From NCBI GenBank assembly GCA_903907995.1, contig CAIVQH010000013.1, positions 62,001-126,000 on the forward strand: DNA of 64,000 nucleotides. The letters are read 5' to 3'. The stretch comes from an uncultured Verrucomicrobiota bacterium. GTDB lineage: Bacteria; Verrucomicrobiota; Verrucomicrobiia; Limisphaerales; UBA9464. Shown piece by piece: positions 31,858 to 39,156 of this stretch. The notes beneath the pieces were generated by a model, which was not told the origin of the DNA, searched no databases, and worked only from the letters and a program-made list of their open reading frames with translations. Position 1 is the stretch's first letter. The number at the start of each line of letters is the position of its first letter. The position numbers and the translations under genes are program-made.

Positions 31858-31950
31858 GAAAGCAGCCTGCTTCCGGCCCGGAGGGCCAACGGAACTTAGC
31901 CGGGGGCAACGCCCCCGGAAACCAGCCTCAGATCCCCTCGCACCCTGAAA
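31858..31950. repeat. Intergenic hairpin repeat (family D)
   Basis: Contains a perfect dyad CCGGGGGC-AAC-GCCCCCGG (31900-31918), preceded by GGCCCGGAGGGCC, and then CACCCTGAAAAGGGTG. No coding sense. It looks like one copy of a dispersed palindromic repeat; no second copy is in the window. Confidence 0.5.
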
Positions 31951-35423: not shown

Positions 35424-35660
35424 GCCCAATCCCGACGGGATTGAATCATTCAGCCCAGCGTTGCGCGACGAAGTCGGGCTACGCTGGGAAAGGCCATCAA
35501 CGAGGGATCTACCCTGTAGGGGTAGAATCAAATTTCCATGGCGACAGATACAACCCGCGTTGGGGTTGAAGATCCTGTTGACGGAGAACCCAGGGTAGTC
35601 CCGCGTGGCGGTCCAACCCTGGGCTGAAGGATGGAATCCCTTTGGGATTCTGGTAAATGT
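35424..35660. repeat. Chain of six short hairpins (family C)
   Basis: Successive palindromes: AATCCCGACGGGATT, CCAGCGT/ACGCTGG around CGACGAAGTCG, CTACCCTGTAGGGGTAG, CAACCCGCGTTGGGGTTG, CCCAGGGT/ACCCTGGG and GAATCCCTTTGGGATTC. No coding sense. Similar word-chains occur between genes in this phylum. It is directly after the fumarase beta gene. Confidence 0.75.
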
Positions 35661-35734: not shown

Positions 35735-35782
35735 CCAACAAAAAAGCAGAGGCCCCGGCAGTCCTTTCGGACCACCGGGGCC
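35735..35782 (-). terminator. Strong rho-independent terminator on the minus strand
   Basis: GGCCCCGG (35751-35758) pairs with CCGGGGCC (35775-35782) around an inner GTCC-TTTC-GGAC stem with a symmetric CA/CA internal loop. Read on the minus strand it is followed by TCTGCTTTTTTG. No protein gene lies upstream of it on that strand for over 4 kb. Confidence 0.85.
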
Positions 35783-36600
35783 AAAGCGGGGGTGGGAGCT
35801 CGCCACGCTCTCTTTCCCAATCACCGTCATTTGGCGCCAAATGGCTGACGGCTTCCCGACGCTGTTCTCCACGGCAAGCGGAGTTGTCGGCCTCGCAGCA
35901 GGGCCGTCCGTCACCTTGCGGTGTACGGATTGTTGAGTGAGGCCTCTGTGCCCGCTTGAGTCCGGCGTTTGCGGCGCCGGGTTGCGGACAAGGTCAAGAC
36001 GTGTTTGCCACTTCGGTTCACGTCTTGACCGCTTCTCCCCAGGACGGCCACCGCTTTTGGCGGTGCGTTGGCCCGGGTTGACGGGTCTGACCTCTTATCT
36101 CTCAGGCTGCGTTCAGTTGACAGGCCGGCGGTGCGGTTTTTCGCATCGCCGACGTTGTGGAAGGTTTCCTCGCCTTGCCCGGCGGGGCCTCCCCGGCCCA
36201 AGCGTTCGCTTTGTCACGCCGTTGGGCGTGGTTTGGGGTCGTCCAATGAAGTCCGACCGACGATACGTCTGGGCTCGTGCTGGTACGCGGTAGCAGCCAT
36301 CTACCCTCTGGGTAACCGCGATTCACCGGACGTCGAAACGCCGCCCGGATACTTGACCCGGCTCGGAATGGTTTCTAATCACCCCTTGCCGCTCAGCTCC
36401 TGAATCGCGTAGCTGACGGAGCGCGAACTCCGCCAGAGGAGCTGGTGAATACTGCCTCCGTCCCCCGGCTTGAGCCGTGTTCAAGAGGAGCCGCGCGAAC
36501 CAGCCTCGCCCGGCCTTTCCCCAGTCGCCTGGGATTATCTTCGAGCCTCGCGCAGGGTTCTTTCGTTCGCTGCCGTCCGACTCAGTGCTTTCAATGAACG
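35783..36600 (-). ncRNA. Possible structured non-coding RNA
   Basis: On the minus strand this stretch is bounded by a -10-like TATAAA (36611-36606) and the terminator at 35782. It contains many complementary segments. These include two interleaved stems forming a possible pseudoknot (36394-36401 with 36437-36444, and 36415-36421 with 36456-36462) and a 16-base perfect palindrome CATTTGGCGCCAAATG (about 35831-35846). RNase P and tmRNA signatures were looked for and not found. The extent and strand are inferred. Confidence 0.35.
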
Positions 36601-36605
36601 ATTCA

Positions 36606-36611
36606 TTTATA
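36606..36611 (-). promoter_or_regulatory. Candidate -10 box of the minus-strand transcript
   Basis: TATAAA on the minus strand, next to a palindrome AATGAA-CGA-TTCATT (36593-36607). The -35 region is weak. It is the most A+T-rich spot in the 1.6-kb gap and would start a transcript running to the terminator at 35735-35782. Confidence 0.3.
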
Positions 36612-36651
36612 GCTCATTTTCCGCATTTGCCCACCGATTGATATGCACCGC

Positions 36652-36682
36652 TTGTTCACCGGACGGCGGGAATTGTTCACCG
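36652..36682. promoter_or_regulatory. Direct repeat TTGTTCACCG, 21-bp period
   Basis: Two identical copies of TTGTTCACCG (36652-36661 and 36673-36682) are 21 bp apart, two turns of DNA, so both face the same side. Degenerate TTCACCGG copies occur at 36322 and 36739. It may be an operator upstream of the minus-strand transcript or of the fusion gene at 37012. Confidence 0.4.

Positions 36683-37011: not shown

Positions 37012-39156
<2,145 letters not shown>

Follow-up and report, generated by a model that had tools for sequence, protein, structure and literature searches.

A MISL RNA gene of the Verrucomicrobiota with candidate pseudoknots and a promoter box also found at mraZ

Introduction

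What is encoded by an intergenic interval that starts at a promoter-like box, ends in a strong terminator and is full of complementary segments between the two? Such an interval lies at 35735-36611 on the minus strand of a 64,000-nucleotide stretch of DNA from an uncultured Verrucomicrobiota bacterium (the whole stretch is called the window here). An earlier note, made from the letters of the sequence, had read it as either an undescribed large non-coding RNA or decayed sequence that happens to be structured. The interval coincides almost exactly with one gene, and the general expectation was borne out: the RNA is large and structured, is apparently non-coding, and has a promoter and a terminator of its own. 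Both of the more specific readings were refuted, as set out below.

Sequences and measures

The relatives comprise 146 locus units, from which five second fetches of the same place had been removed beforehand and in which short-fragment matches and some others are not included. Leaving aside 14 loci for length, short flanks, identity or a missing 5' hairpin, and a further 17 that were more than 93% identical, gave 115 sequences, which were aligned without structure in one MAFFT alignment. All 5-bp windows were ranked by covariation; these ranks depend on that alignment, and sums below about 30 to 40 are noise. Both-side changes are parsimony counts on one FastTree tree, and in slid controls one side of a helix was shifted by 1 to 3. 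RNA positions equal 36541 minus the window position.

Identity of the RNA

A cmscan search of the whole window matched the interval to the MISL RNA (Rfam RF03079) with 526.2 bits against a cut-off of 274.6 (E 7.9e-159). Model positions 1-751 are complete in the window copy, which is no fragment, and MISL was the sole match at gathering score when the window was scanned against all Rfam families. It is virtually beyond doubt that the gene is a MISL RNA. MISL is an already catalogued bacterial family and not new as a family, so the Rfam scan proposed in the earlier note disposes of an undescribed RNA. The covariance models of OLE, GOLLD, ROOL, RNase P and tmRNA gave no match at gathering score in the window, and ARAGORN detected neither tRNA nor tmRNA there, which confirms the absence of RNase P and tmRNA that had been read from missing motifs.

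MISL is reportedly linked to Weinberg et al. 2017 as its original publication. The limited collection of literature searched gave, in the portions available, no stated function for MISL and one structure-probing data set that uses it as an example. Rfam 14 imported families from the Weinberg group's database, and MISL is not named in the accessible part of that description (PMC7779021).

Limits of the gene

Judged from the aligned loci, the gene extends beyond the Rfam model on both sides: around the core lie a sigma-70-like putative promoter, a conserved hairpin and a stem predicted at the 5' end, and a terminator that covaries (Table 1). An upstream alignment of 142 of the 146 loci shows a -35 pattern of the form TTGNC, a -10 pattern of the form TANNNT and, some 58 bases ahead of the Rfam start, the segment GTTCNTTGAAAGAAC, which hardly varies. 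Four loci stand outside this logo; the 5' hairpin segment is present in two, with upstream sequence too short there. The TATAAA that had been pointed out at 36611 is present and forms part of the -35/-10 pattern in the 142 loci, and a simple sigma-70 consensus scan gave no site at the MISL promoter. The 5' stem carries 61 both-side changes on the tree, and only 58 of 114 sequences have a canonical outermost pair.

Table 1. Positions of the gene's features in the window
Feature	Position	Strand	Evidence
Upstream tandem box GGTGAACAAGCGGTGCATATC (GTGNAYAA-N-GTGNATAW type), upstream of -35	36640..36660	minus	Pattern and logo; also upstream of mraZ
-35-like hexamer TGGGCA, 16 bp from -10	36628..36633	minus	TTGNC-type position, logo of 142 loci
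-10 box TATAAAT (contains the TATAAA noted earlier)	36605..36611	minus	Logo of 142 loci
Conserved 5' hairpin segment GUUCAUUGAAAGCAC, outside Rfam model	36585..36599	minus	Logo, 142/146 loci
5' stem, RNA -43..-38 with -6..-1, outside Rfam model	36542..36584	minus	Both-side changes
MISL RNA core, RF03079 model 1-751	35795..36540	minus	cmscan and alignment
PK1, hairpin loop 36499-36504 with 36279-36284 (RNA 37-42/257-262)	36279..36504	minus	Covariation
Helix 36437-36444/36394-36401 enclosing hairpin 36428-36435/36414-36421 and PK2	36394..36444	minus	Both-side changes
PK2, 36422-36426 with 36405-36409 (RNA 115-119/132-136)		minus	Covariation
PK4, long range, 36293-36298 with 36105-36110 (RNA 243-248/431-436)	36105..36298	minus	Covariation
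PK5, 36118-36123 with hairpin loop 36005-36010 (RNA 418-423/531-536), crosses PK4	36005..36123	minus	Covariation
PK6, hairpin loop 35896-35900 with 35860-35864 (RNA 641-645/677-681)	35860..35900	minus	Covariation
Intrinsic terminator, stem 35751-35782 then T-run, downstream of Rfam model	35740..35782	minus	Covariation

At the other end, the minus-strand terminator described earlier is real: its stem of 14 pairs, with a loop of 4 and a T-run, covaries in the 115 aligned relatives, whereas the simple terminator scan by itself carries no weight, since it gave 3 sites where shuffles predict 2.0. Together, the promoter pattern, the 5' segment and the covarying terminator point to a transcript that probably runs from about 36600 to 35740, some 860 nt, with its start probably at or next to 36599. 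MISL would be transcribed as a free-standing unit of that length, from a sigma-70-like promoter to an intrinsic terminator.

Fold and covariation

The wealth of complementary segments corresponds to an excess of structure, with a minimum free energy of -398.6 against -351.9 (sd 9.7) in 20 shuffles (z -4.8); the 16-base palindrome listed in the earlier note lies at 35828-35843. The covariation ranking is headed by Rfam helices, together with the terminator and a small number of new helices; of its 140 leading 5-bp windows, 45 share three or more of their five pairs with Rfam helices. The MISL consensus helices are backed by compensatory change in the 115 relatives, the kind of change that the earlier note had named as a check, and its presence in helix after helix refutes the reading as decayed sequence.

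Covariation further suggests five pseudoknot helices (PK1, PK2, PK4, PK5 and PK6) which do not figure in the structure line printed by Rfam. Since pseudoknots lie outside what a covariance model can represent, others may already have drawn these helices. The long-range PK4 (29 both-side changes; covariation sum 206 against at most 45 in slid controls) and PK5 (30; 204 against at most 12) have the highest sums, followed by PK2 (18; 110 against at most 15), PK6 (11; 77 against at most 24) and PK1 (13; 68 against at most 14). Five of the six PK5 pairs are canonical in the window copy, with one mismatch, while in PK6 four of the five pairs are canonical in all 115 sequences and one in 114. A helix at RNA 389-393/412-416, which extends an Rfam hairpin, is also supported by covariation. 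The loop-loop candidate PK3 (36371-36375/36335-36339) was not accepted, as its slid control scored higher (46 against 40). The contact 36450/36321 covaries singly, and its neighbours form no well-supported helix.

The H-type pseudoknot proposed earlier was half right. Its first, outer stem is real, with 49 both-side changes on the tree. Its second, inner stem (36456-36462/36415-36421) is complementary in the window copy but only 57% canonical in the relatives, with a covariation sum of -13; its place is taken by a local hairpin with 87 both-side changes (Table 1), whose loop forms PK2. As judged from these changes, an H-type pseudoknot does exist here, though not the proposed one.

The core of Rfam helices would thus be tied together by five pseudoknot helices into a compact RNA. 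Could such a core be the active site of a large ribozyme? The large size, the pseudoknotted core and highly conserved unpaired stretches in the consensus speak for it, and the same argument is made for OLE in the available part of PMC11332333. We nonetheless regard a ribozyme as unlikely, given that no known ribozyme family matches the window in the Rfam scan and that a protein scaffold or an RNA-only multimer would look alike.

Coding potential and genomic context

The window copy contains 12 frames of at least 60 aa (60-124 aa), which could in principle belong to a protein or small peptide gene misread by the RNA search. These frames are stop-free in 1 to 34 of the 115 relatives, so that even the best-conserved one is open in 34, and the helices carry compensatory changes; a coding gene is hardly credible here, in agreement with the earlier observation that no gene lies upstream of the terminator.

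The window MISL has a fumarase gene on one side and, on the other, a gene for a fusion of LMW phosphatase, RpiB and serine hydroxymethyltransferase. The latter is one 714-aa frame at 37012-39156 on the plus strand (LMWPc + RpiB + serine hydroxymethyltransferase), matched over at least query positions 1-712 in 10 of 11 relatives; the eleventh (G722) runs off its contig end. Many large RNA motifs are leaders, and a lipoprotein or M23 peptidase gene lies upstream of MISL in 21 of the 56 loci with 2.5 kb of upstream sequence (one member of each neighbour family was scanned with Pfam, and the lipoprotein, without a Pfam match over cut-off, was named by eye). MISL might accordingly be taken for a cis-regulatory part of some neighbouring gene, either a long leader or a 3' element. 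However, these upstream genes are divergent rather than downstream, the element closes with a covarying terminator, and the downstream genes vary by locus (cysK-like in 17, rho in 8 and typA in 6 of the 50 loci with 2.5 kb downstream), with the 3' end of the convergent fumarase gene in the window. A cis-acting role is therefore very improbable. By this survey of loci, MISL has no fixed neighbour gene.

In the congener G169 the same two flanking genes lie 678 bases apart, against 1609 in the window, with no remnant of MISL; the gene can therefore be missing while the rest of the locus stays as it is. From this genomic setting, MISL is very probably a free-standing, trans-acting RNA. The compact molecule would act alone, as a multimer or with a protein, and not as the leader of a nearby gene.

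Separately, Acido-Lenti-1-like (RF01687) elements, both below cut-off, occur on the minus strand of the window at 35428-35488 and 31874-31918. The window's own genome has 17 RF01687 matches at E 0.001 or better, of which 3 are over the cut-off and some form close inverted pairs; these elements are perhaps a dispersed palindromic repeat.

Distribution and copy number

The window's own genome carries one MISL copy. At E 0.001 or better, matches were found in 5/8 genomes of the genus, 6/50 of the family, 128/293 sampled from the order (122 over the family cut-off), 68/286 from the class and 24/288 from the phylum; these samples overlap, and the larger searches apply stricter filters. MISL is thus patchy, as the 6 of 50 genomes in its own family show, and is therefore not needed by every cell. 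No match was found in 14 control genomes. A pattern scan of named genomes returned at least 118 stretches, and among the matches listed a Verrucomicrobiota group is named in 79 of 80 titles, the remaining one being 'bacterium' only.

Some relatives depart from the usual form. Two genomes, G422 and G511 (L158, L159, L166 and L167), have two full-length copies each instead of the usual single copy. In several members of family f24 (L109, L120, L128, L136, L139 and L146) the MISL matches extend over about 940 bases, so that the RNA would carry insertions of roughly 190 bases.

MISL in contigs of single-stranded RNA phages

Three IMG/VR contigs join MISL to genes of ssRNA phages. L320 (1-5357) has a full MISL (543 bits), then a maturation-like ORF (below the Pfam cut-off) and a replicase; in L321 a MISL of 254.5 bits, which is below cut-off and truncated at the 5' end, precedes a maturation gene; and in L322 maturation and replicase genes follow the 5' part of MISL. 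In all three MISL lies in the phage plus-strand sense. MISL inside ssRNA-phage contigs would have been read from RNA, which suggests that homologues of the window gene were present as RNA.

These joins raise the question of whether MISL is a mobile or phage-borne RNA, and the RNase P control, in which none of 42 stretches with the pattern was hit by five leviviral proteins, yielded no contig of this kind. Nevertheless, each of the three MISL parts has a different bacterial copy as its nearest (80%, 86% and 82%), and they break at different points, at or near the phage 5' end; in L320 and L321, the two whose 5' ends were compared with relatives, the join falls within the phage 5' hairpin or directly at it. 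A search of 193 viral loci, phage relatives included, gave MISL in these three only, and neither 50,697 phage records nor 72,556 plasmid records contain a match. Bacterial SRP RNA is found in a like position, at 1-253 of a leviviral contig (L558, 1 of 14 stretches in the SRP RNA control) with leviviral genes after it, and on L569 a piece of MISL adjoins a tail-sheath-like ORF. A phage-borne MISL is consequently highly improbable. The contigs are probably chimeric cDNA or assembly, because SRP RNA is joined likewise; template switching in vivo may be an alternative origin of the joins.

Two further observations were made on viral contigs. Twenty leviviral contigs, mostly with long leaders and drawn from 158 fetched by protein search, gave no Rfam match at gathering score. 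On L569, a viral contig of 15 kb, the 5' part of MISL occupies 1-166 and the tail-sheath-like ORF was named by eye.

A promoter box common to MISL and mraZ

In 78 of the 142 MISL upstream regions a tandem box was recognized by pattern, consisting of GTGNANAA, 2 or 3 bases, and then a GTGNANAW half; by this pattern it is absent from the other 64. The box lies mostly 62 or 63 bases ahead of the 5' hairpin in the 78 regions, and the pattern occurred in none of 50 shuffles. A related pattern has three sites in the window's own genome (G000): at MISL, in the interval between mraZ and a queuosine gene, and inside an ORF near a uvrA-like gene. Of 22 other MISL-bearing genomes, 9 contain the strict box, at 10 sites in total; 8 of these sites are at MISL, and 2 lie upstream of mraZ (in G095 and in G098, the latter confirmed by Pfam with a MraW gene behind). 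In the remaining 13 genomes it is found nowhere, MISL included.

Scored with a weight matrix from the 78 boxes, 15 of 28 mraZ upstream regions reach 10 or more, compared with 7 of 2023 control segments, a contrast flattered by controls that are flanks of MISL loci and mostly coding; the strict genome-wide pattern is free of this weakness. In the other 13 mraZ regions the score stays under 10; the test excludes three rows (L199-L201) that were second matches to genes already represented. In most of the mraZ regions inspected, the box stands upstream of a TTGAC-type -35, as it does at MISL. The mraZ-side box of G000 and G095 is oriented to the queuosine gene rather than to mraZ, and G249 and G090 have MISL and no MraZ match. 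On balance we consider control of MISL shared with mraZ fairly probable.

Which protein would bind the box? The promoter of mraZ and its dcw cluster resembles that of MISL in its tandem GTGAATAA-type box upstream of the -35, but differs from it in repeated AGTGG-type boxes around the -10. The latter resemble the MraZ repeats of Mollicutes, given as AAAGTG[T/G] in the available part of PMC8475190. In MISL promoter cores, AAAGTG occurs in only 6 of 142 and a GTGGG pair in none of 142. MraZ is disfavoured as the common regulator because its repeats sit near the mraZ -10 and are missing at MISL. The tandem box looks like a pair of DnaA boxes, the DnaA box being TTATCCACA in the part of PMC4072686 at hand. 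Exact TGTGGATAA is present in only 3 of 142 MISL upstream regions, and within one mismatch in 48 of 142 (shuffle mean 0.97). DnaA is the leading candidate binder, albeit a doubtful one. The tandem, DnaA-box-like element would link MISL transcription to the control of mraZ, and growth- or cell-cycle-linked expression of MISL may follow from it.

Proposed function and significance

The explanation that accounts best for the whole, and to which we lean slightly, is a single-copy MISL gene for a pseudoknotted trans-acting RNA whose promoter box is common with mraZ. A bolder version, in which MISL is a cell-cycle-regulated RNA machine with five pseudoknots, co-switched with the mraZ division and cell-wall cluster via a tandem DnaA-type box and acting during chromosome replication or division, is speculative and rather improbable. 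If true, it would be the first sequence-based lead to a cellular process for a large ornate RNA in Verrucomicrobiota. The promoter box common with mraZ points to growth or division control, and the tertiary map, with its five pseudoknots and probable true 5' and 3' ends, defines a construct to express, probe and image.

Comparison with known large RNAs

The nearest system is Rfam RF03079 itself, which the window gene matches over its full length; the window copy is single, intergenic and without a conserved frame of 60 aa or more. The gene differs from the model in being longer, by the 5' hairpin, the stem and the terminator, and in its five pseudoknot helices that the printed structure does not include. 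Nearest in kind, and to judge by covariance searches not relatives by sequence, are OLE, GOLLD and ROOL.

OLE, also a bacterial RNA, shares with MISL a large size, a free-standing form and a high degree of structure, and its function too is unsettled, according to the available parts of PMC12054373 and PMC11332333. Unlike MISL it is mostly confined to Bacillota (PMC12054373, in the same part), and its model has no match in the window; moreover, OLE has known protein partners, whereas none was found for MISL. GOLLD and ROOL resemble MISL as large ornate bacterial RNAs, again with no covariance match in the window. Both form RNA-only multimers by cryo-EM, as described in the accessible part of PMC12286853, where MISL is not named, and these multimers provide a testable model for MISL.
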